Origin: Enterococcus rotai | Lineage (GTDB): Bacteria; Bacillota; Bacilli; Lactobacillales; Enterococcaceae | Direction: 5' to 3' | Assembly (NCBI RefSeq): GCF_001465345.1 | Contig: NZ_CP013655.1 | Coordinates: 1,377,349 to 1,441,348 of the forward strand | Length of the DNA: 64,000 nt | Shown: positions 46,316-60,992 of the stretch, one piece after another | Position numbering within the stretch: position 1 is the stretch's first letter | Layout of the letters: the number at the start of each line of letters is the position of its first letter | Position numbers and translations under genes: made by a program | The notes under the pieces: model-generated | Database searches by the model: none | The model's input: only the letters and a program-made list of their open reading frames with translations | Told to the model about the DNA's origin: nothing

Positions 46316-46346
46316 TTGACTGATAGATACTCTAACACTCTATAAT
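46316..46346 (+). promoter_or_regulatory. 19-nt-spaced promoter (P1) of the MucBP surface protein
   Basis: TTGACT (46316-46321), spacer of 19 nt with CTCTAA at spacer positions 9-14, TATAAT (46341-46346). It shares this pattern with the promoters at 58348 (minus), 58451 and 60116. It lies 40 nt before the start codon. Confidence 0.65.
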
Positions 46347-46385
46347 ACTAGATGAAAAAATCTTAATATAGATGGAGTGAGCGGT

Positions 46386-48092
46386 ATGAAGAAAAAAATG
46401 TTTTTTTTAGCTATGACAATAATAATGTCGGGCCATTCTTTTCCAGTTAGTGGACAAGCAATTTCTGATGAAGAGCTTCAAGGGAGTCAAGATTATATTG
46501 AAAATAAAGAACTCACAGAGCACTCATTGGAAAATGGTGTAGAGTTGATTGAACAATCAAGTGAACGATCGGTACAAAAAAGTGTTAGTAACCAAGAAAA
46601 CAAAGAGGAACTAGAAACAATTTCTCCCATTTATAGAGTACATAATCAAGCCTATGGTAGTTTTGAAGAAAGTCTTTTTCCTTATAACAGCCCCATAGTA
46701 TTAAATATACCCATTTATGATTATAGTGAGCAAGCCCAGTATTTGCCTACATTATATATTGTTATCCCGAAAGAAATTAAACTATTCGGTGGATTAAGTA
46801 GCTTACAAGCAGAGCTAGATCGATATTTGATGATAAATGGTAACATCAAAGGTGGCCAATTGATTGCTTCAAAATTGAATGACACTCCAAATGGTAGAGA
46901 AGCTTACCAAATTACGCCAACAGAAGGTACTTATATAGATGGTATATTGCAGGATAGAAATTTACATTTAGTATTAGAAGCACCAGATAAAAAATCGAAT
47001 GTTGAGAAAATTATTTTAAATGCAAATAAAATTAGTGAGATAGCAGATTATAATATTTTATTTTTTGGATATGACAAAAAAAATCTCACTAATGTTAATG
47101 GTAAAAATCCAGTCATAGACGCTAGCGCTTGTGGAATTGAGGGAAGTGATATGACAGTTGCGACAAGTGTATCTAGCCAGCATCGGCAGGAAGTATACTT
47201 CTATATTCAAAAAATCAAAGACAGCTACAAACTGATTAATTACTATACGGGGGAGTTGATTGAAGAAAAATCAATTGTTGGTGATTTTGGAGATGTTTAC
47301 AGTAGAATTGGATTAGTAAACAGCCTAGAGTCATGGGGGCTCCCAAATAAAGACTATTCAGAAGATTCTTTATTTTTAGAATCAGGAGATATCAACGGCG
47401 CTGAAATATTAACAACTGAAGCTAGAAATCCAGAAGGTATAGTTGAAGGGAAGAACTATTCTGTATTTGTAAAAAAATATGCTGGGGATATTGAGATACG
47501 GTTTATTGATGTTAATGGTGAAAATATTATATCAAAAGAAATTTTAAGTGGCTTTGTTGGTCAAGAATATACAACACAAGCAAAGGAACTACAAGGGTGG
47601 TTAGTGGAAACGGAATTTCCTGAAAATCAGAATGGAGTGTTTACTGAAGAACCTCAAGAGATTACTTACAGGTATGATCGTAAAGATGGAGAACCTGTAG
47701 TTGTTAAATATGTTGATGAGAATGGAAACAAATTAGCTGTAGAAGAAATATTATATGGAAAAGTTGGATTGGAATATAAGTCACAAGTTAAACAGATAGA
47801 AGGTTGGGAAATAAAAGAAGATCCAATAAATGCTGAAGGAAAATTTATGGAAGTCTCCCAAGAAGTTATTTATGTATATTCTGTCAAAGCTGTTTTGCCG
47901 AAAGAAGACTCAAAATTGAATAAAGAAAAGCCAGCAGGAAAACTGTTAGGAACACTAAATGAAGAAAAGCCTATGCTTCCACGTACTGGTGGAAAATACA
48001 GCAGTTTCATTAGTTTTACGCAACTAGGATTAATTTTTATTTTAACATCAATAATTATTTTTTATAAAAGAAAAAAAGCTAAAAACACATGA
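46386..48092 (+). CDS. LPXTG-anchored surface protein with MucBP repeats
   Basis: A 568-residue cell-wall protein with a signal peptide (about 1-25, ending SGQA), an Asn/Glu/Ser-rich linker, a unique domain (about 80-370), two MucBP-type repeats (about 373-440 and 442-508; each with F/Y-x-D-x-N-G and a GWxV/GWEI step), and a sorting signal LPRTG (from about 531) with hydrophobic segment and KRKK tail. It is probably an adhesin anchored by sortase A. ATG 46386 has GGAGTG 6 nt upstream. The Mga regulator at 48241 is convergent. Promoter P1 lies directly upstream. Confidence 0.9.
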   Translation: MKKKMFFLAMTIIMSGHSFPVSGQAISDEELQGSQDYIENKELTEHSLENGVELIEQSSERSVQKSVSNQENKEELETISPIYRVHNQAYGSFEESLFPYNSPIVLNIPIYDYSEQAQYLPTLYIVIPKEIKLFGGLSSLQAELDRYLMINGNIKGGQLIASKLNDTPNGREAYQITPTEGTYIDGILQDRNLHLVLEAPDKKSNVEKIILNANKISEIADYNILFFGYDKKNLTNVNGKNPVIDASACGIEGSDMTVATSVSSQHRQEVYFYIQKIKDSYKLINYYTGELIEEKSIVGDFGDVYSRIGLVNSLESWGLPNKDYSEDSLFLESGDINGAEILTTEARNPEGIVEGKNYSVFVKKYAGDIEIRFIDVNGENIISKEILSGFVGQEYTTQAKELQGWLVETEFPENQNGVFTEEPQEITYRYDRKDGEPVVVKYVDENGNKLAVEEILYGKVGLEYKSQVKQIEGWEIKEDPINAEGKFMEVSQEVIYVYSVKAVLPKEDSKLNKEKPAGKLLGTLNEEKPMLPRTGGKYSSFISFTQLGLIFILTSIIIFYKRKKAKNT

Positions 48093-48162
48093 ATTGAACG
48101 TGGTTCGAGTATACTTGTTTTTTGTTTGTCAAAGTTTATGTAACTAATAAATCATCGTATAT

Positions 48163-48202
48163 AAATAGGAGTCTGAATTGTAAGAAATTCGGACTCCTAT
48201 TT
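48163..48202. terminator. bidirectional terminator
   Basis: 17-bp stem (48163-48179 / 48186-48202) with one G-U pair, between the convergent surface-protein and Mga-type genes. Confidence 0.82.
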
Positions 48203-48240
48203 AGTAATATTAAACTCGTGTTAAATCATTTTTCTCTATG

Positions 48241-49671
48241 CTAAATTGCCCAGTTAAGTTTTAGTATTTGACCTTGAATTGCTTTTCCAAGCTCTTCCCA
48301 GTTTACTTTGGAGCTAATATCGCTGAAGAAAAATAAATCAACATTCCTTTTTTTTATTGGAATAACGTTCGTAATGATTAAATCAGCGTCATCAGGATTA
48401 TCTGTAAATACAAGAATATCTGTACGATAACTTCGGCCCAAAATATTTTCGATAAATACTTTTACGCTAGAATACTCAAATAAATCAATATGGATTTTAA
48501 CAGGAATGAGCAAATTCAAGTAAGAGTATGTTAACTCGGAAAGTTCATCTGCATATTGTTGAATAGCTAAAGGTGAGATAACATCCTTTAAATATATCTT
48601 TGTGATTGACTCAATACGATCAATGTATCTATTTTTAGTTCTTTTTATTTCAATAATATTTTTGTATTTCCAACATTTGAAAAATTTATAGACAATAAAT
48701 CGTGCGTAATACTCCCACATTAATAAAAACATTTCCTCTTCTGAGCAACTAAACTCTTCTTCGACTGCGTGAATGAATATTTTAAAAAAAGGAACTATTT
48801 CCGACTGGCTTTTCCACAAAGAGTTACCAATCATTTTTTTTTCATCGTTTGTAATAATGTCTGGTGCGATATACGTCAGCCATAATAACATAGCAGAGGA
48901 ATCATTATTGTCTAAAGAAGCTAATGCATATCTTGGACAGACTTGTTTAATGAGGTTTACAAAGGCAACTTCTTCTTTACCAAGCTCAGGTAAAAGATAT
49001 AATTGTTGCTTTCTCGACATGAAAATACTTTCTACTATAGTAATAAGATGATTTGTTGTTTCGGTAAATTTATTATTAACAAAAACGTTTGATGAATGTG
49101 TCACACTTGGTTTAAATTTTGAATCAAGTGTATTAAAAATTAAAGAAAAAAAATAATAGGCGATACATCGAATCTCTATTTCATCACCGAAAAAAGAGAC
49201 TTTGTAAGCTTGAACATCTATATGTACATTGAGATGATGAAGTTTTAATTGATCAGAAAGATCTTTTATTAATTTGTAAAGATAGGAGTGACTAACCATA
49301 AGCTTTTCAGATAGATCATAGATGGAGATTGATTTAGATTTTAATAATAATGTGAATAATTGAAATGAAATTGAATTCTCATAATAATTGAGCTGCATGG
49401 TTTTATAAACATTTAAGTAAGTTTCAGAATTAAAGTTATCTCCAAATTTAATTGTATTTCCATTAAGAGAAATATCCAACGAACTATCTATAGCATGTAT
49501 TTCTTCAAGCAATTCTACCAGTAAATTCTTTGCTGTTCGCTTAGAAATCGTATAAAAAGTAGTCAGCTCATCTAAAGTCATAGCCCCTCTTTCTAGTAAG
49601 TTATTTAATAAATCTAATTTAATTGTCTCTTTTTTAGAAATAAAGCTGTTATTTTCTTTTACTGGAATCAT
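48241..49671 (-). CDS. Mga-family regulator
   Basis: A 476-residue regulator with an N-terminal helix-turn-helix (TLDELTTFYTISKRTAKNLL), a second one (about 110-140; VSHSYLYKLIKDL), a helical PRD-like middle, and an EIIB-like C-terminus (DILVFTDNPDDADLIITNV). I chose the ATG at 49671 with aaaaggag upstream; the 10-residue extension lacks an SD. It lies between an LPXTG gene and the WxL locus, so control of either surface locus is plausible. It resembles the protein at 21935 in layout only. Confidence 0.85.
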   Translation of the reverse strand: MIPVKENNSFISKKETIKLDLLNNLLERGAMTLDELTTFYTISKRTAKNLLVELLEEIHAIDSSLDISLNGNTIKFGDNFNSETYLNVYKTMQLNYYENSISFQLFTLLLKSKSISIYDLSEKLMVSHSYLYKLIKDLSDQLKLHHLNVHIDVQAYKVSFFGDEIEIRCIAYYFFSLIFNTLDSKFKPSVTHSSNVFVNNKFTETTNHLITIVESIFMSRKQQLYLLPELGKEEVAFVNLIKQVCPRYALASLDNNDSSAMLLWLTYIAPDIITNDEKKMIGNSLWKSQSEIVPFFKIFIHAVEEEFSCSEEEMFLLMWEYYARFIVYKFFKCWKYKNIIEIKRTKNRYIDRIESITKIYLKDVISPLAIQQYADELSELTYSYLNLLIPVKIHIDLFEYSSVKVFIENILGRSYRTDILVFTDNPDDADLIITNVIPIKKRNVDLFFFSDISSKVNWEELGKAIQGQILKLNWAI

Positions 49672-49843
49672 ATTTCTCCTTTTTATATGGTTTATTTTCA
49701 TTATAATCTTGAATTCAATACCTTTTGCGAGTTGAAAAGAGGTGTTCTTTTTTTTTTGTAAAAAAAAACAGTAATAAAATAATAGATATTAAATAAATGA
49801 TAGATAATGATTATACAGAACAGATGATTTCCAACACATTTAG

Positions 49844-49861
49844 ATAATACATATGTATTAT
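49844..49861. promoter_or_regulatory. 18-bp perfect palindrome upstream of the WxL locus
   Basis: ATAATACATATGTATTAT is fully self-complementary and lies 66 nt before the first gene of the WxL locus. Probably the operator of a dimeric regulator; either flanking regulator could bind. Confidence 0.55.
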
Positions 49862-49926
49862 ATTAAGTTTAAATCGCAAAATAAATCAACTTATTTGCTT
49901 TTAAAAGACAAAGGAGGACAAATTAT

Positions 49927-50625
49927 ATGAGTGACAGACTAGGAATAATTGAAATTAATAGTGCTGAAGATCAGGAATCAATCTTTAATGGCATTAATAA
50001 TGGCATTAATGAAAATTATAAATATGAGTTCATAAACATTGAAAATGAAGAACAATTAGAAGAAATAGCTGGATTAATGATTTTCGCAAATAAGATAGTT
50101 GATTATATCGAAGTTTGTCAATGGCTATTGTCACTGCGCAATAGAAAGCCGCTATTTGTTTGGATCGTTTGTAAAGATTATGACGATAATATGAAGGAGT
50201 TATATTGTAAATTAGCAACGAATGCAATGATTGAGGTTATCCAATATGATAAAAACAATCAACATTTGATGAGCAAAGTAAAACAAGCGATTGATTTTCA
50301 AAATAGCTTGCTCTCGTATAAAGAGCAAAAGGAACGGAAAGCCACTTTTTACTTGGATAGTCAAAGTTTGAAAATTGTCGTTGAGGATAAAGATATATAT
50401 CTGACAAGGTCAGAGTTTAAATTATTTACTATCTTATATGACAATTTAGATAATCCTGTTAGCTATGAAAAAATAATAGAAATAATCTGGCCGACGATTG
50501 ATAGTGAAAGTTATAAATACAGATTAGCAAATTTAGTATTTCATCTGAGAAAAAAGTTAGGAAGACAACCGAATATAGATATTCAAATAATTCGAACGAA
50601 GGGTTATCTATTAAAAATAAAATAG
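49927..50625 (+). CDS. orphan winged-helix regulator with degenerate receiver-like half
   Basis: A 232-residue protein. The C-terminal half (about 135-232) is an OmpR/PhoB-type winged helix (LTRSEFKLFTILYDN, YKYRLANLVFHLRKKLG, IIRTKGYLL). The N-terminal half has receiver-like length, but I find no aspartate triad or conserved lysine. No kinase gene is near. It stands first in a run of WxL-locus genes on the same strand, so it is probably a phosphorylation-independent activator of that locus. SD aaaggagg is strong. Confidence 0.82.
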   Translation: MSDRLGIIEINSAEDQESIFNGINNGINENYKYEFINIENEEQLEEIAGLMIFANKIVDYIEVCQWLLSLRNRKPLFVWIVCKDYDDNMKELYCKLATNAMIEVIQYDKNNQHLMSKVKQAIDFQNSLLSYKEQKERKATFYLDSQSLKIVVEDKDIYLTRSEFKLFTILYDNLDNPVSYEKIIEIIWPTIDSESYKYRLANLVFHLRKKLGRQPNIDIQIIRTKGYLLKIK

Positions 50626-50674
50626 ATTAAGCTAGTGAGTCCAGAAATAAATTCTAAATAATCCGAAGGAATGG

Positions 50675-51343
50675 ATGGTATATCAAGTGAACATTATCAA
50701 AGAGAGATTCAAAAAGTACAAACTTTATTTTTTGAACCTATTGTTTATAGCAATGGCATGGTCATTATATTTTCTGTTTTTTAATAGCTTTTACAAAGAG
50801 GCTGCATTCTACATAGATAAAAAAGCAGGTATTGTCATACAATTACTATTTTTAACAACTTATTATCTAGATGCAATATTAGTATATATTGCACTGGCAT
50901 TTATTTTGTTAACAATTCACCAACTAATCATAGTGTACTTTTTTATAAATGAACAAAAAAAATTAACTGTGAATAAAAAAGTTCAACCAATTATCTGGTT
51001 ATTTTTATTTCTTTTCATAATTTGTTTGATAGGATTAATGGCTAATTTAATCTGGCCATTGTTTTTACTAACGCTTGTATTTTCTTCTACAGTTGTTTAT
51101 ATCATATACGTTGCGACTAAGTACATATATGAAGATACGCAAAATTTATATGAAAATAACGAAAATATAAAATTAGAAGGTCCATTTAAAACGAAAGAAG
51201 AGGCGCAAGCATATGTCAGTGAATTTGATTGCTATTGGAAGGATTACTTTGATAAAAAAGGTTTTTCCATACATAGCAATATAGAACTAGACGATAGTAA
51301 TAACTATTTTGTTTATTTATATACGATCAGTAAAAATAACTAA
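50675..51343 (+). CDS. membrane protein of the WxL locus, unknown function
   Basis: A 222-residue protein with about four membrane segments (about 17-37, 55-90, 105-125 and 127-150) and a soluble C-terminal domain (about 165-222; KTKEEAQAYVSEFDCYW) with a SPOR-like flavour. SD aagga precedes ATG 50675. It lies between the orphan regulator and the first DUF916 gene. No family was recognised. The C-terminal domain may face the cytoplasm and interact with a partner of the locus. Confidence 0.65.
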   Translation: MVYQVNIIKERFKKYKLYFLNLLFIAMAWSLYFLFFNSFYKEAAFYIDKKAGIVIQLLFLTTYYLDAILVYIALAFILLTIHQLIIVYFFINEQKKLTVNKKVQPIIWLFLFLFIICLIGLMANLIWPLFLLTLVFSSTVVYIIYVATKYIYEDTQNLYENNENIKLEGPFKTKEEAQAYVSEFDCYWKDYFDKKGFSIHSNIELDDSNNYFVYLYTISKNN

Positions 51344-51368
51344 AAGAGTATGGATAAGGAGAGAAATT

Positions 51369-52433
51369 TTGAAAAAAAAAATTAGACTACTATGCTTTGT
51401 AATTGTTTATTTATTTGCTAATAGTATTGGAGGTCAGATAGCTTTAGCTGCGTCAGAAGATGATAATTTAGGGTATGTAGTATCTTTAGTACAACCTAAA
51501 AGTCAAATAGATCCTAATAAAAGTTATTTCTATATTCAAACTGAACCTGGAATTGAACAAGACTTAGAAGTAAGAATCAAAAGTACAAAAAAAGAAAATG
51601 TGAAAATCAAAATTAGTGCAACAGACGCATTTACTGGGGATAGTGGGACGATTGAATATACGGATAAAAAAGAAAAACTAGGGGAAACATTACAAAATCC
51701 TGTGAGTTCATTAGTTAAAATTGACACACCTGAAATTACAATTGGTAATTTTGAAGAAAAGAAAGTGATGGTTCGATTGACACCTCCTAAAGAGCATTAT
51801 GAAGGTGTAAAAATGGGGGCATTAGTCTTCAAGTTAGATGTAGGAGAAAAAAGTTCAGGAGTTGCAACAGAATTTGCATATAGAACAGGTTTTCTGATAT
51901 CGGAGTCAGGAGACGAGTTTAATAACGGTCAAACATTGGAACTAACATCAGCAAAAGCAGCGATTAAGAGAGGGAAAAAGATGGTTCTAGCGAATTTAAA
52001 AAATCCAGAACCCAAAGTATTAGAAGATTTAAATATAACAGCGATGATGGTAAGAAAAGGAACAGACAATGTCATTAAACAAAAAACGGTTCAAAATTAT
52101 TCAATGGCGCCAAATAGTCAGTTTGATTTTGAAATGGACTGGGGAATCGAAAATCTACCATCGGGTACCTATACACTAAAATTAGAAGCTGAAAATGGTA
52201 ATAAAGAGTGGAATCTGAGTAAGGATTTTACTATTTCGAATAAAGAAGCAAAAGAAATGAATGAACAAAGTGTGTTTAAGATTGTGACTCCGATGTGGAT
52301 CAAAATTGTGACTGTGATAATGGCTTTCATTACTATGATGAGTGGTGTTATTACTATAGTTAGACGTAAAAAATGGGAAAAAAGATGGAAAAAATTGAGA
52401 TTGAAAAAGAAAAAGAAAAACAAAAAAAAGTAG
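51369..52433 (+). CDS. DUF916/DUF3324 WxL-associated surface protein
   Basis: A 354-residue exported, membrane-anchored protein with a signal peptide (1-28), a DUF916 domain (about 35-150; begins VVSLVQPKSQIDPNKSYFY), a DUF3324 host-binding-type domain (about 160-305), a C-terminal membrane helix (about 312-335), and a very lysine-rich cytoplasmic tail. Such proteins partner WxL proteins at the wall (CscA type). The start is TTG 51369 with aaggagag upstream; the ORF extends further 5' but overlaps the previous gene without an SD. A second DUF916 protein ends the locus. Confidence 0.88.
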   Translation: MKKKIRLLCFVIVYLFANSIGGQIALAASEDDNLGYVVSLVQPKSQIDPNKSYFYIQTEPGIEQDLEVRIKSTKKENVKIKISATDAFTGDSGTIEYTDKKEKLGETLQNPVSSLVKIDTPEITIGNFEEKKVMVRLTPPKEHYEGVKMGALVFKLDVGEKSSGVATEFAYRTGFLISESGDEFNNGQTLELTSAKAAIKRGKKMVLANLKNPEPKVLEDLNITAMMVRKGTDNVIKQKTVQNYSMAPNSQFDFEMDWGIENLPSGTYTLKLEAENGNKEWNLSKDFTISNKEAKEMNEQSVFKIVTPMWIKIVTVIMAFITMMSGVITIVRRKKWEKRWKKLRLKKKKKNKKK

Positions 52434-52460
52434 TGAGTTAGTGAATAAGGAGACTTATAA

Positions 52461-52802
52461 ATGGGCAAAAAAAATAAATATTTAATTAAGGTCATACTAC
52501 TACAAGCATTTTTATTTATCTCTTTTTGCTCGAATAATATAGTTGTTCAAGCAGAAAAAACGGATGCGGGTATAGGCTTTGAAGAATCTACAATTACAAC
52601 GACTGATTCTTCAAAGCCAGAGCCACCCATAACATTGAAGCCTAAGCCTATAGGACCAGATCGAGATACACAACTGCCGCATTTAGGGCAAATGATTTCA
52701 TCAATCATTCTATTATTGATAGGTTTAGGAATGCTAATCATTTTTATTGGTGTATTTGCATTGAAAAAATTATGTTACAACAATAGCTTAAAGGAGAGAT
52801 AA
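52461..52802 (+). CDS. small LPXTG-like protein (CscD type) with LPHLG motif
   Basis: A 113-residue exported protein with a signal peptide (1-31), a Pro/Lys/Thr-rich stem, a sorting-like motif LPHLG (72-76), a hydrophobic segment (about 79-100) and a short charged tail. Small LPXTG proteins are regular members of WxL clusters. Here Thr is replaced by Leu in the sorting motif, so cleavage by the window's class A sortase is uncertain. The DAGIGFEE start of the mature part resembles DVGIRFET of the WxL protein. SD aaggag. Confidence 0.85.
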   Translation: MGKKNKYLIKVILLQAFLFISFCSNNIVVQAEKTDAGIGFEESTITTTDSSKPEPPITLKPKPIGPDRDTQLPHLGQMISSIILLLIGLGMLIIFIGVFALKKLCYNNSLKER

Positions 52803-52805
52803 ACA

Positions 52806-53030
52806 ATGAGAGATTATTTATGGGTATTTATTTTAGCTGGAATCGCTTCAGTATCATTACTATTTTTCATCGTTACATTGTCTCGGGATGTATTTTTGGC
52901 TAGACGACTAAAGCTGAAAAAAAGTAATTTAGTATTGAATTTTAGTTTTTTAGCAATGTCACTTGGTAGCTTAATAATGATAATCTATTTATTTATGTTA
53001 TTAAAAGAACAGATTGGTCTGATAGGATAA
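52806..53030 (+). CDS. small two-helix membrane protein of the WxL locus
   Basis: A 74-residue protein of two membrane helices (about 6-25 and 44-66) joined by a basic loop (ARRLKLKKS). SD aaaggag precedes the ATG, and only 3 nt separate it from the gene upstream, so it is coupled. No family was recognised. Confidence 0.7.
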   Translation: MRDYLWVFILAGIASVSLLFFIVTLSRDVFLARRLKLKKSNLVLNFSFLAMSLGSLIMIIYLFMLLKEQIGLIG

Positions 53031-53036
53031 TTTTTT

Positions 53037-53895
53037 GTTAATGAACGGTTTAAATCAGTAACTGTCTCCAATCTGGATAACAGCTTAAGAGGGAGATAAA
53101 ATTTTGAAAAAATTAGTTTTGACAACACTTTTAGCATCATCAGCATTGATGATTTTTGCTAAACCAGCAAATGCTGAAGAAGTGAGTAAAGATAGCACAG
53201 ACGTAGGTATTCGCTTTGAAACAGATGGTCCAAATAAACCTGGACCTGGACCATACAAAGATAACTTAGCATTAATTTGGACACCATCTACATTTGATTT
53301 TGGTAAACAAAAAGCGACAGCTAATATTGCCACTTTCAGCAATACAGTTGCAGGCGATCAATATCTTGTAGTCAACGATGATAGAGCCTTAGAAGGTGAA
53401 ACAGATGGTACAACAAGCGCTTGGAAATTAACAGCGACTATGTCTGAATTAGTATCTAAAGATACGACTAAAGCTGAATTACCAGCTAAGTTGACATTCT
53501 CTCTAGGCGATATTGAATCATATGATATTGGTGATGTAGATGAAGAAACAAATGACTATTATCCAAACCCTGTTGAAGGTAACTTAGGTAAATTAGCAGA
53601 AAATAGTGATACAAAGTTAAATAAAGCAGTTTCTTTAGAAGCTGGAAATACAACTGCTGTTGAACTTATGGGTAAAACAAAAGCTAATGCTGTAAAAGGC
53701 GGTTTTGCAACTAAATTATCTGATACAAAATTAGTAGTAACTTCAGGTAAAGATGCTGCTGGTAAAAACTTTAAAGGTACAGTTAACTGGAGTCTAGATA
53801 ACACTTACTAAAAAAGTTTATAAAAATAAAAAAATAAATTAAAGAAATTGTTTCCAAATTCGGATGACAGTTACTGATTTAAGCTGTTCACTAAC
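53037..53895. repeat. inverted repeat pair flanking the WxL gene
   Basis: The 30-nt sequences at 53037-53066 and 53866-53895 are reverse complements at 27 of 30 positions. Each also lies beside a TCCAA-TC-GGAT-ACAG-like motif (about 53066-53083 and 53852-53870) in direct orientation, before the start codons at 53104 and 53947. Confidence 0.65.
53104..53811 (+). CDS. WxL-domain cell-surface protein
   Basis: A 235-residue secreted protein with a signal peptide (1-24, ANA). The WxL domain has both motifs: W107-K-L in SAWKLTATM and W229-S-L at the very C-terminus (NWSLDNTY). WxL domains attach non-covalently to peptidoglycan. The N-terminal PGPGP stretch (46-50) is a flexible linker. The start is TTG 53104 with agagggag upstream. 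It lies between two DUF916 partner genes and is flanked by an imperfect inverted repeat. Confidence 0.93.
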   Translation: MKKLVLTTLLASSALMIFAKPANAEEVSKDSTDVGIRFETDGPNKPGPGPYKDNLALIWTPSTFDFGKQKATANIATFSNTVAGDQYLVVNDDRALEGETDGTTSAWKLTATMSELVSKDTTKAELPAKLTFSLGDIESYDIGDVDEETNDYYPNPVEGNLGKLAENSDTKLNKAVSLEAGNTTAVELMGKTKANAVKGGFATKLSDTKLVVTSGKDAAGKNFKGTVNWSLDNTY

Positions 53896-53946
53896 AAACT
53901 AGATAACTAATTATATGGAAAATACGTAAGAAATGAGGGGATATTT

Positions 53947-54975
53947 TTGAAAAATATACAATGGTTAAGTCTTTGTTTTCTTAGTCTGTTACTATTTCTC
54001 ATATACCCTTTAAAAACAGTTGCACAAGAGAGTAATAATGAGCCGATGAATGGATTTTCATATCAAGTAAGACAACCTGAAAATCAGATAAATAAAAATG
54101 TAGGTTATTATGATCTTCTAATGAAAAAGGGGCAAAAACAAAAAGTAGAATTAATTTTATATAACGCGAAGAAAAAAGCGATTGATGTTTCTATCAAGTT
54201 AAGTAGCGCTAAAACAAATGCGAATGGCGTTGTAGAGTACGCACCCAATGCGTTAAAAGAAGATGATTCACTAAAATATAAGTTTACAGATATTGTTAAA
54301 ACTACTGATAGAGTAACAGTTCCAGCTGAGAGTGACAAAACGGTCATATTAGAGATCACGATGCCCGAAGATTCAATAGAAGGTCTTATAGCAGGTGGAA
54401 TTCAGCTACAACTCATTGAGGAAGAGAAAAACACTGAAAAAGAAATTATACAGAATAAATTTGCTTATTTAATCGGCTTTTTGTTAAGTGAGTCAGATAC
54501 CAAAGACATTAAGCCACGACTTAAATTCAATGAGACTTACTCAAAAGTTTCTAATGGACAGCATACATTATTTTTGAATTATTCGAATACTAGCCCAATT
54601 TTCGTAGAAAATATGGACGTGGTAGTCAAAGTATCAAAGCATAATTCTAATAAAGATTTATTTGAATTAAAAAAAAGTGGATTAAGAATGGCCCCTAATT
54701 CGATGATTGATTTTCCGATTTCTTTAGAAGATAAAAAATTAGCTAAAGGTAAATATAAATTACAAGCCGACATTCGACTATCTACTGGTGAAAATTGGAA
54801 GTGGGAGCAAAATTTTACGGTAACCCAGGATGATCTATCATCTTTGGATGTTCAAAAGAAAGAATTAGGTGAGGATAACACGATTTCACTATATACATTA
54901 CTTTTAGGAATTACGTCAGTGGTAATATTAGTTTTAGTAATGGTCGTTTTTCTAATAAAGAGAATAAAAAAATGA
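53947..54975 (+). CDS. second DUF916/DUF3324 WxL-associated protein
   Basis: A 342-residue exported protein with a signal peptide (1-26), a DUF916 domain (about 33-150; YQVRQPENQINKNVGYYD), a DUF3324 domain (about 155-300) and a C-terminal anchor helix (about 312-338) with an RIKK tail. The start is TTG 53947 with gagggg upstream. It is a paralogue of the protein at 51369 but lacks the poly-Lys tail; the two may bind different WxL partners. Last gene of the locus, followed by a hairpin. Confidence 0.88.
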   Translation: MKNIQWLSLCFLSLLLFLIYPLKTVAQESNNEPMNGFSYQVRQPENQINKNVGYYDLLMKKGQKQKVELILYNAKKKAIDVSIKLSSAKTNANGVVEYAPNALKEDDSLKYKFTDIVKTTDRVTVPAESDKTVILEITMPEDSIEGLIAGGIQLQLIEEEKNTEKEIIQNKFAYLIGFLLSESDTKDIKPRLKFNETYSKVSNGQHTLFLNYSNTSPIFVENMDVVVKVSKHNSNKDLFELKKSGLRMAPNSMIDFPISLEDKKLAKGKYKLQADIRLSTGENWKWEQNFTVTQDDLSSLDVQKKELGEDNTISLYTLLLGITSVVILVLVMVVFLIKRIKK

Positions 54976-55025
54976 TATTCAAAGGTTTTCCCAATAATTA
55001 TTAAAAATAGACATTCTTATAGGTT

Positions 55026-55052
55026 CATTATTCATTTATAAAATGAATAATG
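55026..55052 (+). terminator. hairpin at the end of the WxL locus
   Basis: A 12-bp perfect stem CATTATTCATTT / AAATGAATAATG with a 3-nt loop and no T tract. Confidence 0.55.
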
Positions 55053-55195
55053 GTTAAACGAAAATAGTAGGAGTAGTTGAGAACATAAGGGAGACCGTTT
55101 GAGAAAGCATTGATACTTTTATAGACATCTATGTAGTAAAGAAACATGTGTGTATTCAGAAATGTCAGCTGAGTAGGAAGAAGGAGGGAACGGTT

Positions 55196-55642
55196 GTGAA
55201 GACTTATACTGTAAAAGAGGTCTCTGAAATGATGAATATTTCACCGTACACATTGCGCTTTTACGATAAAAAAGGCTTATTCCCTTTTGTGAAAAGAAAT
55301 AGTAAGAACGTTCGTGAATTTAATGAGGAAGACCTAGAATGGGTATATATAGTAATGTGCTTAAGAGCGACGGGGTTATCGATCAGTAATGTTCAGTATT
55401 ACATAAATTTATTTCGTCAGGGTGATGATACTGTAAAAAAACGCTTAGAATTATTGATAGAGCAACGTCAAATTATCAAAAAACAGTTAGCTGAGCTAAA
55501 GCAGAAAAGTGAAATGTTAGAGTACAAGATTGCTGTGTATCAGGGGATGATTGATGGAAACAAAGTCAGATTACACAATCCAATTTCTGAGAAAGTAAAA
55601 AAAAGAGAGCAAATAAACAATTCTAAACTTCGATTGATATAA
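55196..55642 (+). CDS. MerR-family regulator (AdhR/NmlR-like size)
   Basis: A 148-residue regulator with an N-terminal MerR winged helix (1-70; ISPYTLRFYDKKGLFPF, NVREFNEEDLEW), a LRATGLSISNVQYYI helix, then a coiled coil (about 90-125). There is no effector domain, as in aldehyde/electrophile-sensing MerR proteins. GTG 55196 follows aaggaggg; the longer frame from 55148 has no SD. It is convergent to VOC, royal-jelly-like and SDR genes whose promoter (58348 minus) has the MerR layout. It is the best candidate regulator for the four 19-nt promoters. Confidence 0.87.
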   Translation: MKTYTVKEVSEMMNISPYTLRFYDKKGLFPFVKRNSKNVREFNEEDLEWVYIVMCLRATGLSISNVQYYINLFRQGDDTVKKRLELLIEQRQIIKKQLAELKQKSEMLEYKIAVYQGMIDGNKVRLHNPISEKVKKREQINNSKLRLI

Positions 55643-55737
55643 TTCAATTAATGATCATCAGGTTAATTGCTACTTTAGAATGAAGATCGTAAGAAACTAT
55701 TGCTTTAGTAAGTATGTAATTATTAATATAAAGACGA

Positions 55738-55789
55738 AAAAAGCATCACAATCTCCTTATTTTGGTTATAGGAGGCTGTGATGCTTTTT
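55738..55789. terminator. bidirectional terminator
   Basis: 20-nt arms (55738-55757 / 55770-55789) with two mismatches, A-rich and T-rich flanks. Confidence 0.88.
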
Positions 55790-55914
55790 GTTATTATCCA
55801 ATTAAACAGCAATAATGTGATCTATTCAAATTTCGTAACGTAAAGCTAAACAATTAAAAAAGACATGTCTATTCGAAATACCCTTTTACCGAATTAGATA
55901 CTTACAAAAATATG

Positions 55915-56283
55915 TTATATAGAAACAATTTCAATTTTGTAGCCATCAGGATCTTCTAGAAAGTAATAATCTGAGGCTCCGTTAAACTGTTTTATATCTG
56001 TTACTTTTAAACCAAATGATGCCTGTTTTTCGTGCAATTCTCGAATGTTTTCAGCTTTCATGCCAATATGTCCGTATCCATCACCTAAATCATAATTTTT
56101 TTGGTCATAATTATACGTTAATTCGATTTTTACATCACTGTTGGGGAAACTTAAGAATACTAAAGTAAATTTGTATTCTGGAAAATCATCCATACTGATC
56201 TCCTCACAGCCGAATGCTTTTTGGTAGAATGCAATTGACTCTCTAAGATTACTAACTCTAATACAAATATGATCTAATCTCAT
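55915..56283 (-). CDS. VOC-family glyoxalase-like protein
   Basis: A 122-residue vicinal-oxygen-chelate protein. Putative metal ligands are H5 (LDHICIRV), E54 (IELTY), H72 (GYGHIGM) and E118 near YKIEIV, the pattern of lactoylglutathione lyase-like enzymes. This fits aldehyde or methylglyoxal detoxification, though many VOC proteins have other substrates. It is the last of three minus-strand genes with royal-jelly-like and SDR genes. Confidence 0.87.
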   Translation of the reverse strand: MRLDHICIRVSNLRESIAFYQKAFGCEEISMDDFPEYKFTLVFLSFPNSDVKIELTYNYDQKNYDLGDGYGHIGMKAENIRELHEKQASFGLKVTDIKQFNGASDYYFLEDPDGYKIEIVSI

Positions 56284-56303
56284 ACTATGCGCCTCACTTC
56301 ATT

Positions 56304-57383
56304 TTAATAGGATGGTGTTTCTCCAATATTTATCTTTAATAATAAATATGGCTTTTCTCGTTTATCAATTCCTCCGTTGAAGCCTGGTTGCCTATGCACT
56401 TGATTGGCTGTTACATAAAGATAGCCATCTTGTCCAATAGTCATAGAATCAGGCCACAAGACTAAATCATTTTGCAAAACGGTCTCTAATTGTCCGTCCT
56501 CATTAATAGCCACTATAGAGTTGTGCTCATAGTCTCCAGCATACAAAGTTCCATTAACAGACATAATCAGACCATCAGAAGACCCTTTTTCAACCAGTGC
56601 TTCTACTTTACTTTCTAAGTATTCATCTGTAAAGTTTGAAAATAATAAGTCTGTTTCAATAGAATACAGGTAGCGTCCAACTAAAGAACAAAAATAAAGC
56701 GTCTTTTTATCTGGAGATAGTTCAATTCCGTCCACAGCTACGTGAAAACTAGAAATATTCCCATCAGAATCCAAATTACGTAAAGGTTTTCCTTCGACCT
56801 TAGGAAGGATAGTTTCATCAACAGCCGTTGATTTGACACCGTCTAAAACTCTTCTAGATTGTCCGCTTTCTAGATCTAATAGTATGATTGCTCCAGGTCC
56901 AGAGACAGATGAATCAGTGATAAATGCGGTTCCTTTATCGCCTCTATTCCAATCAAAGCGCATATCATTCAAATAAGTTGTATCTAATAGGACTTTTTCA
57001 GAAAACGAATAAGTATTTAAAATCTTGTTCGTTTTTAAATCAATAGATACTAATTTTGCGGCTTCTTTGTTTGGTACATTAAAAAATGGAGCGCCTGTAT
57101 CTAAAACCCACAATCGATCGAGATGATCGATAAATAATGCTTGTACACTTAAAAACGTGTTAATTGGATTAGTAGAATCATAACGGTTCATTTCTTCATT
57201 TGGATAAGGTATTTCTTTTTCATCTACTAACTCAACCACAGAATATGTTACATCATCTCCCCATTTCGGGAAATTTATAAACAATCTCCCGTTTTTAGAG
57301 ATAGCCACTCCTGTGGGCATCGCATTATAAAATTTTGCTGCTATTTCTAATTCTCCGGTGTTTTTTCTACTGGGAAAATCCAT
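56304..57383 (-). CDS. major royal jelly/yellow-like beta-propeller protein
   Basis: A 359-residue protein related to the MRJP/Yellow and SMP-30 propellers: AMPTGVAISKNGRLFINFP (about 20-38), LWVLDTG (about 91-97), DLESGQSRRVL, and WPDSMTIGQDGYLYV near the end. No signal peptide. Bacterial members are largely uncharacterised; a lactonase- or tautomerase-like role is possible. I prefer the ATG at 57383, 7 nt after ggagg; the ATG at 57389 abuts the SD. It is in the middle of a three-gene unit with SDR and VOC genes. Confidence 0.85.
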   Translation of the reverse strand: MDFPSRKNTGELEIAAKFYNAMPTGVAISKNGRLFINFPKWGDDVTYSVVELVDEKEIPYPNEEMNRYDSTNPINTFLSVQALFIDHLDRLWVLDTGAPFFNVPNKEAAKLVSIDLKTNKILNTYSFSEKVLLDTTYLNDMRFDWNRGDKGTAFITDSSVSGPGAIILLDLESGQSRRVLDGVKSTAVDETILPKVEGKPLRNLDSDGNISSFHVAVDGIELSPDKKTLYFCSLVGRYLYSIETDLLFSNFTDEYLESKVEALVEKGSSDGLIMSVNGTLYAGDYEHNSIVAINEDGQLETVLQNDLVLWPDSMTIGQDGYLYVTANQVHRQPGFNGGIDKREKPYLLLKINIGETPSY

Positions 57384-57438
57384 ATACATTCCTCCTTATA
57401 TAGAACGATAGACAAAAAGATGTTCCTCACATTTCCTT

Positions 57439-58191
57439 TTACAATGCATGTTTTGAAGAGCGCATTAACACTTCACTAATTGAAACATTTTCAGGTGTCG
57501 ATAGGATATATGCGACCGCTTCTGCTACGTCTTCTGCTGACAATGATGTAGTTCGGTCTTTTACTTCACCCGCAATCCACGACTCAATATCAGGGTTTCC
57601 TACGCTGTTGATCAGCTCAGTTTCTACAATACCCGGTGAAACAATAGACGAGCGGATGTTATCTTCTAAATGTTCTTGTCTAACTCCTTCCATGATGGCT
57701 CTAACTGCATATTTAGTTCCACAATAAACAGCTGAATTTGGATAGACTAGATGACCTGCTACTGAGTCCATTGCAATCATATGTCCGAATTTTTGCTCTA
57801 CCATTATAGGAAGACATGCTGCTAATCCATTTACAACCCCCATAATATTAACATTAACTGCTGAAGTCCATTTTTTTACTTCTTTTTCCTCTGAGCTAGC
57901 TAAAGGTCCCATTGGCATAATTCCAGCATTATGAAACATAACATCGATTTTCCCGAATTTTTCTAGTGTATAGCTGACTAGTTCTTTCATATCCAATAAG
58001 CTTGTAACATCTCCAACTTTATACTCTACATCATAGGCTACTAATTCTGATTTTATGGATTTTAGCAGATCTTCTCTTCGAGCAAACATCATAACTTTAG
58101 CACCAGTCTTTGCTAATTTTTTTACAGTAGCTTCACCTATACCGCTAGATGCACCCGTAATAATAATAACTTTGTTTTTAATATTTTCCAT
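57439..58191 (-). CDS. SDR-family oxidoreductase
   Basis: A 250-residue classical short-chain dehydrogenase/reductase with cofactor motif GASSGIGEA (about 12-20), NAG (about 89-91), catalytic Ser in AMDSVAGHLVYP and YCGTKYA (Tyr/Lys), and a PGIVETEL block. It reduces a carbonyl with NAD(P)H; substrate unknown. SD gggag precedes the ATG. It heads the minus-strand SDR - royal-jelly-like - VOC unit, 157 nt from promoter P4. Confidence 0.93.
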   Translation of the reverse strand: MENIKNKVIIITGASSGIGEATVKKLAKTGAKVMMFARREDLLKSIKSELVAYDVEYKVGDVTSLLDMKELVSYTLEKFGKIDVMFHNAGIMPMGPLASSEEKEVKKWTSAVNVNIMGVVNGLAACLPIMVEQKFGHMIAMDSVAGHLVYPNSAVYCGTKYAVRAIMEGVRQEHLEDNIRSSIVSPGIVETELINSVGNPDIESWIAGEVKDRTTSLSAEDVAEAVAYILSTPENVSISEVLMRSSKHAL

Positions 58192-58347
58192 AGTATCCGC
58201 TCCCGTGCTTCAATATATTTTTATCTAATTTTTAAGTAAACTACAGCAATATCTCTTCATATTGATGGTTAGTAGTCAATAGCTATCACTTGAAAAGAAT
58301 AGAGTGTTTTATAGGCAATGCTATTTACTTAAGATTAGATTATATGA

Positions 58348-58378
58348 AGTATAGTGCATTAGAGTTACTATCATGCAA
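58348..58378 (-). promoter_or_regulatory. MerR-type promoter P4 of the SDR unit
   Basis: Minus strand: TTGCAT (58378-58373), 19-nt spacer GATAGTAACTCTAATGCAC, TATACT (58353-58348). CTCTAA is at spacer positions 9-14, as in P1-P3. TGCAT/ATGCA arms surround the core. Confidence 0.68.
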
Positions 58379-58450
58379 ATGTTTTTTATTATTTTTTTAT
58401 AGTAAGTAAGCATGTACAAAATTTATTTATAAAAAGTTTGACTTTAAGTA

Positions 58451-58481
58451 TTGACTTAGACTAACTCTAACCTTTTATACT
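58451..58481 (+). promoter_or_regulatory. MerR-type promoter P2 of the DUF2798/MBL unit
   Basis: TTGACT (58451-58456), 19-nt spacer, TATACT (58476-58481). A dyad TTAGA-ctaac-TCTAA overlaps the -35 and spacer. This is very like operators known for AdhR/NmlR-type MerR proteins. Confidence 0.7.
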
Positions 58482-58667
58482 GCGTTTGTGGTCATGGAAA
58501 GGGGGTTTTGTTAATCATTCAAACGGCATAATGATGGACATTAGTTACTAAGATATTTTGTTTTAAACATAAACTCTTATTTATAAATGAAATATTAGAG
58601 TAAAAAAATGTAATTTGCTGTCTTAAAGTAGTATAAAAACTGATATAACAGAGAAAGGAGGAAGCTC

Positions 58668-58904
58668 TTGTTTTTAATAGACTTAAAAAAATATAATCTA
58701 TTTTTTACCATTTTTTATGCAGGGACATTAACTGCTTTAGTATCTTTAACATTGACATTGATTAATGCAGGTATTGATAATTTTAATTTTGTAAGTTGGC
58801 TTAGATCGTGGCTTATCGCTTTCGCAATCGTATTTGCATGTTCGTTTTTCTTGCCAAGTGTAGTACGTAAATCACTAAACAAAATTATAACCATAAAAGA
58901 ATAA
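58668..58904 (+). CDS. DUF2798 membrane protein
   Basis: A 78-residue protein with two membrane helices (about 10-32 and 46-66; the second ends in SFFLPSVVRK), typical of DUF2798. Start is TTG 58668 with a strong aaaggaggaag SD. It lies 33 nt before the MBL-fold gene in the same direction and probably shares its transcript from P2. Function unknown. Confidence 0.8.
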   Translation: MFLIDLKKYNLFFTIFYAGTLTALVSLTLTLINAGIDNFNFVSWLRSWLIAFAIVFACSFFLPSVVRKSLNKIITIKE

Positions 58905-58937
58905 TAATCCGAATTTAACAGAAGGACGTGACGTAAG

Positions 58938-59600
58938 ATGAATATCATTCAACTTTCAAAATCAATCTATAAATATGAGTTTCCAGCTGGTAGTGTACTC
59001 AAAGATGCAGTAAGAATAAATGTTTGGTTAGTATTAAAAAGAACAGATGTCTACATTATTGATACTGGCTTTGCTGAAATGACAGAGGAACTTGTAAAAT
59101 ATATAACAGCTTTAGGAACTCCGAAAGCCTTATTTGTAACACATGGCCATCGAGATCACATACTTGGTGTTCATCAACTTGCCCATATGTTTGATATCCC
59201 AGCATATGCTCATCCCTTAGAGATAAAACAAATCGAAAATGCAATGGCACCTTATCCAACATCAGAGGACAAAATGTCTGGGATGTTTAAAGAATTAACA
59301 GATGAAATTGTGAAAGAAGCTGGACTTCAATCTTTTGTAACGCCAGGTCATTCTCCTGGCCATACTATTTTTTATCACATGGAAGAGCAAGTTTTAATGG
59401 TAGGAGATTTATTTACAACAACAGATAAACAATTGCTACCACCTATCGTGAGATTTACTCCCGATATGACAGAAAGTATTGATAGCGGAGCGATTTTAGA
59501 TGAAATAAAACCTAATTTAATTTCATCTTCTCATGGAGAAGACTTACTATACAATGAAGAGCTGTATTCTCAACTAGCTTACTTTTTTAGAGCTGAATAA
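58938..59600 (+). CDS. MBL-fold metallo-hydrolase
   Basis: A 220-residue metallo-beta-lactamase-fold hydrolase. Zinc ligands: HGHRDH (about 70-75), H138 region in TPGHSPGH, D157 in MVGDLF and a C-terminal His in SSHGE. This fits glyoxalase II-like or lactonase-like activity. SD aaggacg precedes the ATG. With the VOC, SDR and MerR genes nearby it suggests handling of reactive carbonyl or lactone compounds; substrate unproven. Confidence 0.9.
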   Translation: MNIIQLSKSIYKYEFPAGSVLKDAVRINVWLVLKRTDVYIIDTGFAEMTEELVKYITALGTPKALFVTHGHRDHILGVHQLAHMFDIPAYAHPLEIKQIENAMAPYPTSEDKMSGMFKELTDEIVKEAGLQSFVTPGHSPGHTIFYHMEEQVLMVGDLFTTTDKQLLPPIVRFTPDMTESIDSGAILDEIKPNLISSSHGEDLLYNEELYSQLAYFFRAE

Positions 59601-59665
59601 TTAAGTGAACTGCTTGTTATGAACAGAGCAGATGAAGCAAATCCGAATGAAAGAGTTCTAATAAA

Positions 59666-59887
59666 ATGGAAGTAGTTATCTATGATAGCCTAGGTCATCA
59701 ACTGCATAATGGAGATACGGTTATTTTGACGAAGGATTTAAAATTAAAAGGCACTAAATTTATTTTAAAAAGAGGATTTAAGTTAAAAAAAATTACAGTT
59801 AGAGATGATGTCTTTTGTATAGTAGCTCGCACAAAAGAACATGGGATAATTGAACTGAAAAATGAATCTGTTAAGCTTTTAAAATAG
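59666..59887 (+). CDS. PhnA-like SH3 domain protein without zinc ribbon
   Basis: A 73-residue protein matching only the C-terminal domain of PhnA/YjdM (IYDSLGHQLHNGDTVILTKDLKLKGT). The N-terminal zinc ribbon of typical 110-residue members is missing, and no remnant of it lies upstream. The SD is weak. It may be a stand-alone short form or a truncated gene. It lies 65 nt after the MBL gene. Confidence 0.7.
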   Translation: MEVVIYDSLGHQLHNGDTVILTKDLKLKGTKFILKRGFKLKKITVRDDVFCIVARTKEHGIIELKNESVKLLK

Positions 59888-59890
59888 AAA

Positions 59891-60077
59891 AAACAGTAGG
59901 GGCCTGGGACATAACTAAAAAAGTTATGTTTCAGGCTCTTAGTAACCGAATAAACGGTGGGCGCAGAAGCAACTCCTTCGAAAATAAGCCGAAACTCACA
60001 AAAATTTGAAGAGCAATTTTCGTAAACTCCTTCTTATTTCTCGGAGTTAAACACTTCTGCCCCAACCTCTACTGTTT
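59891..60077 (+). repeat. dispersed palindromic intergenic repeat, copy B (complete)
   Basis: Outer arms aaacagtaggg / ctactgttt enclose a cctgggacataact/agttatgtttcagg hairpin (59903-59935), a gcagaag / cttctgc pair, and an extra middle segment (about 59975-60038) with cgaaaat / attttcg arms. It shares block order with copy A at 26240. It may end transcription from the MBL unit. Confidence 0.78.
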
Positions 60078-60115
60078 CCTATAATAAATTTATTGTAAAT
60101 AATTAAACATATTAG

Positions 60116-60146
60116 TTGACTGATACTTGCTCTAATGTATTAACAT
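60116..60146 (+). promoter_or_regulatory. 19-nt-spaced promoter (P3) of the amaP operon
   Basis: TTGACT (60116-60121), 19-nt spacer with CTCTAA at positions 9-14, TAACAT (60141-60146). Its first 20 nt match P1 at 17 positions. A TATTAA with a 16-nt spacer is an alternative -10. Confidence 0.55.
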
Positions 60147-60227: not shown

Positions 60228-60779
60228 TTGGGTAAGTGGAAAAAATTTAGTATGGTAGTTATTTGTTCAATTGTTATGTGTATGACATTATTTACTCTAC
60301 TATCCTACTCAACTGCTACAGGTATGTATATTTTTGAATTACCTTATCCCGATCTTTTATTAGCTAATGATGTTGTAGCTACTCTCGTTATTTGGTTTAA
60401 CGCATGTATGTTCTTATTCTTTTTAACTACGGTATTTGTAATAACATGTTATCCTAAAAAAATGACCAAATTAAAATTTAAAAAAAATGGTGGAGTACTA
60501 TTAATTGATCGTAAGGGAATTAAAGGATTTATTCTTTCTAGTTTAAAAGAAGAAAAAGTTATCAAAGATCCTTCTATTCACATTAAGATGACAAAGAAAA
60601 AAATACATGTTGCTATAAAAGGGAAAATAGGTGTAACGTCCGAAATATATGGCCGCATAAAAGAATGGGAGTATGAGATGGAAGAACAGATCAAGATGCT
60701 AGTTGGCAGTGAGGTTGGAATAAGAACAAAGGTTATACTAAAAGCTTATGCCGATGAAGACGCTCGAAGAGCGGGCTAG
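60228..60779 (+). CDS. amaP: alkaline shock response membrane anchor protein AmaP
   Basis: A 183-residue protein with two N-terminal membrane helices (about 7-28 and 50-75) and a cytosolic domain (about 85-183) ending in ..VILKAYADEDARRAG, typical of AmaP, which anchors Asp23/Gls24-type proteins to the membrane. The start is TTG 60228 with ttggaggt upstream. First gene of the amaP-DUF2273-Gls24 operon. Confidence 0.88.
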   Translation: MGKWKKFSMVVICSIVMCMTLFTLLSYSTATGMYIFELPYPDLLLANDVVATLVIWFNACMFLFFLTTVFVITCYPKKMTKLKFKKNGGVLLIDRKGIKGFILSSLKEEKVIKDPSIHIKMTKKKIHVAIKGKIGVTSEIYGRIKEWEYEMEEQIKMLVGSEVGIRTKVILKAYADEDARRAG

Positions 60780-60794: not shown

Positions 60795-60992
60795 ATGAAA
60801 GAATTATTGAAATCGAATCAAAGTGTTTTAATAGGGGGCATTTTAGGTCTGTTATTCGCCACCATTTTCATAGCGATCGGTTTTTTCAAAACAATAGTGA
60901 TCTTTATATTTACCATTTTAGGTAGCTATGGCGGATATTATGTGAAAAAGAGTGGTTTATTGGATGGATTTCTTTCTAAAAAGAGAAATTAA
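60795..60992 (+). CDS. DUF2273 small membrane protein
   Basis: A 65-residue protein with two hydrophobic segments (about 11-28 and 29-47) and a GGYYVKKSG motif, typical of DUF2273 proteins encoded between amaP and asp23/gls24. SD gtgagg precedes the ATG. Probably helps localise the Gls24-type protein. Confidence 0.88.
   Translation: MKELLKSNQSVLIGGILGLLFATIFIAIGFFKTIVIFIFTILGSYGGYYVKKSGLLDGFLSKKRN

Follow-up and report, generated by a model that had tools for sequence, protein, structure and literature searches.

A Putative MerR-Type Regulon Defined by a Dyad within 19-Nucleotide Promoter Spacers in Enterococcus rotai

We analyzed a stretch of 64,000 nucleotides from the genome of Enterococcus rotai (positions 1,377,349 to 1,441,348 of contig NZ_CP013655.1; "the window"), which contains four promoters with a 19-nucleotide (nt) spacer and a shared CTCTAA core, as well as a gene for a MerR-family protein at 55196 (merR). 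Our sequence comparisons make it very probable that the product of this gene is an NmlR/AdhR-like MerR activator of the four promoters (P1 to P4) and of a fifth located past the window (P5), and that it would recognize a dyad within their 19-nt spacers. The sites, with scores from a matrix described below, are as follows.

P1, 46316-46346, + strand: TTGACT-19-TATAAT, predicted MerR-type promoter/operator before an adhesin gene, 27.4 bits.
P2, 58451-58481, + strand: TTGACT-19-TATACT, predicted promoter/operator of a DUF2798-MBL-YjdM unit, 30.3 bits.
P3, 60116-60146, + strand: TTGACT-19-TAACAT, predicted promoter/operator of amaP-DUF2273-Asp23, 23.2 bits, the weakest of the five.
P4, 58378-58348, - strand: TTGCAT-19-TATACT, predicted promoter/operator of an SDR-MRJP-VOC unit, 27.7 bits.
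P5, G000:C1:1453671-1453701, - strand: 12 kb past the window, before the gene of a PI-PLC-domain protein, 34.3 bits.

A preliminary description of the window had reported P1 to P4 as four promoters with a 19-nt spacer and CTCTAA, and their letters and positions are exactly as claimed, CTCTAA occupying spacer positions 9-14 in P1, P2, P3 and P4 alike. A search with the loose pattern TTGnnT-N8-CTCTAA-N5-TAnnnT, with the reversed pattern as control, gave four matches in the window at up to one mismatch, all of them exact, where 0.20 were expected, and none of 100 shuffled sequences reached four. Random matches of similar score across the genome, which the description had named as grounds for abandoning its proposal, were not what we observed: the whole genome (3,746,111 bases) contained five exact matches and the reversed control none, and P1 to P5 all lie inside 30,038 bases, a span for which random placement gives a probability of about 2e-8. 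The spacer is exactly 19 nt in all five sites, a length that is demanded by the search pattern, P1 to P4 having first been found by eye. With one mismatch allowed, the genome gave 12 additional places and the control 18, which is background, and the five exact sites therefore stand apart. P5, the left half of the dyad and a YjdM gene after the MBL gene are additions to the preliminary description, as are the NmlR-like character of the regulator and the 3-bp center of the dyad.

When aligned, the sites are close to TTGACT-GATAGTAA-CTCTAA. In the window sites, the right arm is retained and the left arm is mostly GATAG; four relatives in the genus have mirrored arms, GAGAG-TTA-CTCTC, and in a site from G133, a genome of another family (TTGACTGATAGTAACTATCAA), the symmetry runs in the opposite direction, GATAG-TAA-CTATC. 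This symmetry of the arms suggests that CTCTAA is one half of a MerR operator, and the dyad consensus TGATAG-TAA-CTCTAA may be regarded as a relaxed form of the TGAGAG-TTA-CTCTCA of the relatives. Out of seven possible pairs, the dyad has six in P1 (center 8), five each in P2 and P4, and four in P5 (center 7 in P2, P4 and P5). The center is 7 bp from the -35 element in P2, P4, P5 and three of the four G133 sites, the fourth giving a tie. An odd dyad with its center 7 bp from the -35 element is the value given for 21-bp MerR-family sites in the available excerpt of the source (PMC5045206; this and the other papers cited here are represented by excerpts). A perfect NmlR-type dyad, TTAGAG-N3/4-CTCTAA, does not occur in the whole genome. 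Alignments between the promoter regions (E up to 0.01) are limited to 14-26 bases of the operator, with the exception of the overlap of P2 and P4, which is a single stretch, and of a 43-base match in the coding part of the SDR gene. The likeness of the promoters thus stops at the operator, which argues that the sites did not arise by recent copying of long promoter stretches, and we dismissed whole-promoter copying on this ground.

The proposed regulator is encoded by the following gene.

merR, 55196..55642, + strand: 148 amino acids (aa), NmlR-like (Pfam MerR_1 5e-16; NCBIfam NmlR 6.5e-29, under the cut-off; PDB 5d8c 1.7e-28).

The protein carries a MerR winged-helix domain (PF13411, 59 bits, cut-off 21.6; PF00376, 50.7 bits, cut-off 28.2), and its score with the MerR-DNA-bind domain (PF09278) is 23.1 bits, with a cut-off of 25.4. 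NmlR is its best NCBIfam model, and 5d8c, 5d90 and 5e01 are its closest solved structures; with the NmlR equivalog model NF041849, the window protein scores 100.4 bits and its G133 homologue 94.8 bits, both under the cut-off of 175. Cys55 aligns with the cysteine of the NmlR structures, the sensing residue being Cys54 in H. influenzae and Cys52 in B. subtilis, and is common to the homologues of G133, G227 and G234. In the excerpt of PMC4776306, the NmlR cysteine is required for the response to formaldehyde. By eye, a short perfect dyad, ATAGACATCTAT, is present at 55121-55132 before merR, and may be a candidate for the promoter/operator of this gene itself.

The distribution of the sites among genomes follows that of MerR proteins of this type. 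In the genus, a refined motif (up to two mismatches) is present in 5 of 22 genomes, precisely those in which the best MerR match is <1e-30 (5/5 vs 0/17, Fisher P 3.8e-5). In the order, at up to one mismatch, it is present in 8 of 11 genomes with a MerR match <1e-30 and in 4 of 384 others (P 6e-12). The motif adjoins merR and is aimed at a divergent SDR gene in four genomes of the genus (G073, G084, G089, G090), and likewise in G209, G227 and G234; sequences from the genus relatives are TTGACTGAGAGTTACTCTCAA, TTGACTGAGTGTAACTCTCAA and TTGACTGAGAGTTACTCTAAG. In the four genus relatives, the merR beside the motif is the closest homologue of the window MerR, with 44-48% identity. Of the 13 genomes in which a refined site occurs, 10 have the MerR gene beside the site or in its operon; the exceptions are the source genome, G226 and G428, and the MerR of G110 is only 25% identical. 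In a tree of MerR proteins (47 rows, with long branches and poorly resolved inner forks), the four rows nearest the window protein are those of G133, G227, G234 and G209, all from site-bearing genomes, and the window MerR falls in no starred group. The presence of a site requires 3 changes on this tree, compared with 14.6 on shuffling, and none of 500 shuffles was as low. This label was assigned by us to 18 rows, including those for the sites of G012, G096/G099/G103, G072/G076/G085 and G110; L081 is absent from the tree, and the L092 row is a fragment of the neighboring L084 gene.

The window sites can also be recovered from outside the source genome. A matrix was constructed from 13 rows (12 distinct sites) of other genomes only, deliberately excluding the source genome as well as the sites of G226, G110, G012, G096/G099/G103 and G072/G076/G085. 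In the window, this matrix ranked P2, P4, P1 and P3 at the top in that order, with the fifth-ranked place at -1.4 bits and the best place in the reversed window at -0.3. P5 ranked first in its locus (L006), where a nearby weak place, L006:12741, scored 6.3.

The genes that would be served by the five sites encode the following products.

46386..48092, + strand: MucBP protein with a C-terminal LPRTG motif, putative P1 target (Pfam MucBP 1.3e-30; LPRTG in the ORF).
55915..56283, - strand: GloA-like VOC protein, putative P4 unit (Pfam Glyoxalase 4.6e-18; NF050074 154.8 bits, cut-off 165).
56304..57389, - strand: MRJP-like protein, putative P4 unit (Pfam MRJP 4.6e-28).
57439..58191, - strand: SDR oxidoreductase, first gene of the putative P4 unit (Pfam adh_short 1.6e-47; 84% identical to a G133 gene).
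58668..58904, + strand: DUF2798 small membrane protein (Pfam 1.3e-11).
58938..59600, + strand: MBL-fold hydrolase (Pfam Lactamase_B 3.6e-23).
59666..59887, + strand: YjdM/PhnA-domain protein (Pfam YjdM 1.5e-14).
60228..60779, + strand: amaP (NCBIfam AmaP 97.1 bits, cut-off 55).
60795..60992, + strand: DUF2273 protein (Pfam 1.4e-11).
61023..61553, + strand: Asp23/Gls24 protein (Pfam Asp23 5e-29).

The gene names given in the preliminary description agree with Pfam and NCBIfam. The protein encoded after P5 has PI-PLC-X and ricin-type lectin domains, and P1 and P5 each point at a gene start from an intergenic stretch.

Three of these target sets are found again in G133, which has four sites in 2.8 Mb. 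One precedes genes for an MFS transporter, a YjdM protein, merR (53-57% identical to the window merR, depending on the method) and a second SDR; the YjdM homologue in this merR operon is 55% identical over 69 aa. Another precedes SDR, MRJP and VOC genes, at 84, 79 and 66% identity, respectively, and a third an MBL gene (42% identical). The fourth, 822 kb from the others, precedes amaP, a 56-aa ORF at the position of DUF2273, and Asp23 (55%); AmaP is 24% identical, yet above the AmaP cut-off. Thus, the gene sets assigned to P4, P2 and P3 are again preceded by operators of this type, and are arranged in another order. In keeping with this reading, three other genomes with an MRJP homologue (G319, G040 and G272; 53-56% identical) lack the SDR homologue, and their 4-kb loci contain no match to the site even when five mismatches are allowed. 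The preliminary description had proposed a single MerR regulon with the 55196 protein as the likely regulator, and both proposals gain support, as far as genome comparison can provide it, from the co-occurrence in the genus, the position of the motif beside merR in relatives, the matrix from outside genomes and the recurrence in G133. It had also joined surface change, envelope stress and detoxification in this regulon; the detoxification and Gls24-type targets do recur in G133, and the adhesin is without support from conservation. Nothing in these comparisons points to bile as a signal.

A number of observations weigh against this interpretation. Elsewhere in the family, the loose pattern occurs at background level, with 21 exact matches and 22 reversed in 105 genomes, so that the comparative argument rests on the refined motif. 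Nine of these 21 matches come from the remaining 21 genomes of the genus, which have 0 or 1 each. We opened nine of the 21 loci (L039, L044, L046, L048, L051, L055, L056, L058 and G090), chosen by eye for the left half or for conservation, and left 12 unopened (L038, L040-L043, L045, L047, L049, L050, L053, L054 and L057); L051 has neither a MerR gene nor a dyad match. G117, G332 and G395 have a MerR match <1e-30 and no site was found in the locus, and in G428 merR and the site are on different contigs. Within the genus of G133, the sites are present in only one of three genomes. As for the sites themselves, P3 has a poor left half, with 4/7 arm pairs placed off center, and a -10 element of TAACAT, while the best dyad of P1 is centered one base off. 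The cysteine is present in 4 of 10 aligned homologues, and the six without it include those of the four motif-bearing genus relatives, so the signal may differ between these proteins. The window merR itself has no match at up to two mismatches within +/-500 bases of its start, and in the intergenic stretch before it the refined pattern is matched with seven mismatches at best. Autoregulation of merR through the same operator was accordingly dismissed, as no such site lies near its start, unlike in the relatives. Finally, counterparts of the P1 and P5 targets behind a site were not seen in the opened loci of relatives, adhesin and PI-PLC genes not having been searched genome-wide; from these comparisons, P1 (adhesin) and P5 (PI-PLC) are best read as local additions.

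The last point raises the possibility that regulation is limited to the conserved units (SDR, MBL and amaP) and that P1 and P5 are look-alikes or silent. We consider this improbable, for with the matrix P5 scores higher than the other four sites and P1 higher than P3, both sites are intergenic and point at gene starts within the same 30 kb, and no other exact site is present genome-wide. A somewhat smaller chance is left for the five sites forming one regulon that is read by another MerR protein. There are 19 MerR_1 genes in the source genome that could supply such a reader, among them a paralogue at G000:C1:30472, whose site TTGACCTAGAGTTAACTCTAAG carries the same CTCTAA half-site (L082:1433). 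The sequence at L082 1433-1463, TTGACCTAGAGTTAACTCTAAGTGGTACACT, precedes the MerR gene and resembles an even-centered NmlR/AdhR-like operator. However, the 4-bp center of this site is even, the distance from center to -35 element is fixed within other MerR subfamilies according to the excerpt of PMC5045206, the motif co-occurs in the genus with a close 55196-type MerR, and no place in the 3-kb locus of any of the 19 MerR genes exceeds 1.6 with the matrix, compared with 23 to 34 for P1 to P5. By eye, four MerR paralogue loci (L079, L082, L091 and L093) have even-centered sites of their own. That the sites are chance matches, or that the motif belongs to a sigma factor and not to a regulator, we regard as highly unlikely. 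Their hexamers are ordinary promoter letters, and the family-wide counts of the loose pattern noted above would fit this explanation, but the -35 and -10 elements are those of housekeeping promoters, and the other conserved positions make up a dyad within the spacer. Chance origin was rejected on the counts, the reversed controls and the clustering, and is opposed also by the matrix test and the recurrence in G133.

From the sites, their spacing, their co-occurrence with merR and the recurrence of operator and targets, all of which are read from sequence, we infer binding, activation and an inducer for the 55196 protein as follows. A dimer of the protein would bind the dyad within the 19-nt spacer of P1 to P5. 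According to the excerpt of PMC9909328, MerR-type promoters with spacers of 19-20 bp have low activity until their DNA is distorted by the protein, and by analogy the long spacer would here hold the -35 and -10 elements out of register when no signal is present. A reactive electrophile probably serves as the signal, with Cys55 as its target, and the SDR, GloA-like VOC and MBL hydrolase encoded in the units point to a reactive carbonyl. In the presence of the signal, the MerR protein would distort the DNA and RNA polymerase could start. The output would comprise a part that recurs in a second family, carbonyl handling (SDR, GloA-like VOC, MBL, MRJP-like and YjdM proteins) and amaP-Asp23, and a part added by the source genome, the MucBP adhesin and the secreted PI-PLC-domain protein.

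The system resembles NmlR of Haemophilus and Neisseria and AdhR of Bacillus subtilis in its best model and structures, in the cysteine at the sensing position, in the 19-nt spacer and in targets linked to carbonyl stress. A gonococcal homologue, whose gene we take to be nmlR (the record is unannotated), has TTAGAG-TGAA-CTCTAA in its diverging promoter, the same half-site with a center of 4 bp rather than the 3 bp found here. The NmlR/AdhR operator TTAGAG-N4-CTCTAA is thus not reproduced, the half-site being kept and the center being N3; with neither the cut-off of the NmlR model nor the operator spacing reached, we regard the system as a variant of the NmlR/AdhR kind and not as NmlR. On a plasmid of Priestia megaterium, an SDR gene is divergent from the gene of a MerR protein with 43.5% identity, and TTATAG-TTTA-CTCTAA lies in a 19-nt spacer as here; this pair differs in its even 4-bp center and in the single target seen. 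The 21-bp sites of CueR and CadR-PbrR, as presented in the excerpt of PMC5045206, share with P2, P4, P5 and three of the four G133 sites the odd dyad, the center 7 bp from the -35 element and the 19-20-nt spacer, but their half-site is another one, and the CueR model gives only 37.4 bits for the 55196 protein (cut-off 147.4). In the excerpt of PMC4776306, NmlR/AdhR regulons consist of a few detoxification genes each, with adhC-estD or adhA, yraC and yraA as targets, in contrast to the SDR, VOC, MBL, MRJP, amaP-Asp23, adhesin and PI-PLC genes considered here. Among the matches listed from the open-licence literature, of which titles and abstract openings were covered, we found no description of a MerR regulator of gls24/amaP or of this operator, and as far as those matches tell, the regulon is apparently undescribed.

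Other observations can be summarized as follows. In another set of genomes (L055, L056, L058, L039, L099 and L101), related dyads (TTTAGAG-TTA-CTCTAAA and similar) precede genes that, judged by eye, encode aldo/keto reductases, and a MerR gene adjoins the dyad in all of these but L099. Between P1 and merR, inspection by eye indicated a Mga-like regulator (48241-49701, - strand), a winged-helix regulator (49927-50625) and, at 51309-54975, an apparent WxL surface-protein cluster. The amaP operon of G133 has beside it, at L109 8549-10150, a gene whose product is homologous to the window regulator of 48241-49701 (24% identity, 3.5e-16). The segment from the window to P5 (L006 101-6081 and 6425-8013) encodes two large secreted proteins, of which one contains ESETSEIELQ-like tandem repeats; a transposase ORF and an adjoining fragment were recognized there by eye. 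The 124 bases at 59947-60070, just upstream of P3, are 87-90% identical to stretches of Enterococcus plasmids (H41-H45) that have no annotated feature beneath, and on account of these plasmid matches they look like a dispersed repeat. Of 14 plasmid records that match 40000-62000 at the DNA level, 13 are from Enterococcus, and the relatives of the SDR and PI-PLC proteins recovered from plasmids were all <60% identical. On a plasmid of Vagococcus carniphilus, amaP-DUF2273-Asp23-GlsB-CsbD is flanked on either side by a gene for one IS256 transposase (L124 585-5266), an arrangement of envelope-stress genes that is composite-transposon-like; an IS256 gene ends 124 bases upstream of amaP, and amaP-DUF2273-Asp23 is not preceded by a site there (best score -1.9).

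If our interpretation is correct, the Gls24 envelope system gains a named regulator, and five promoters with one operator would bring detoxifying enzymes under common control with an envelope-stress operon and with surface or secreted proteins, in a regulon larger than those that the excerpt of PMC4776306 describes for NmlR/AdhR. The presence of the operator before an unlinked amaP-Asp23 in another family would provide a concrete candidate regulator for that stress system. We tentatively suggest, as an idea that may well prove wrong, that an electrophile sensor couples carbonyl detoxification to AmaP-Asp23/Gls24 in more than one family, and that in this organism it has captured an adhesin and a PI-PLC protein, aldehydes serving as a cue for surface remodeling. 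The system would also represent a clean case of a MerR lineage in which the center of the operator has shifted by one base pair and the regulon has grown alongside.

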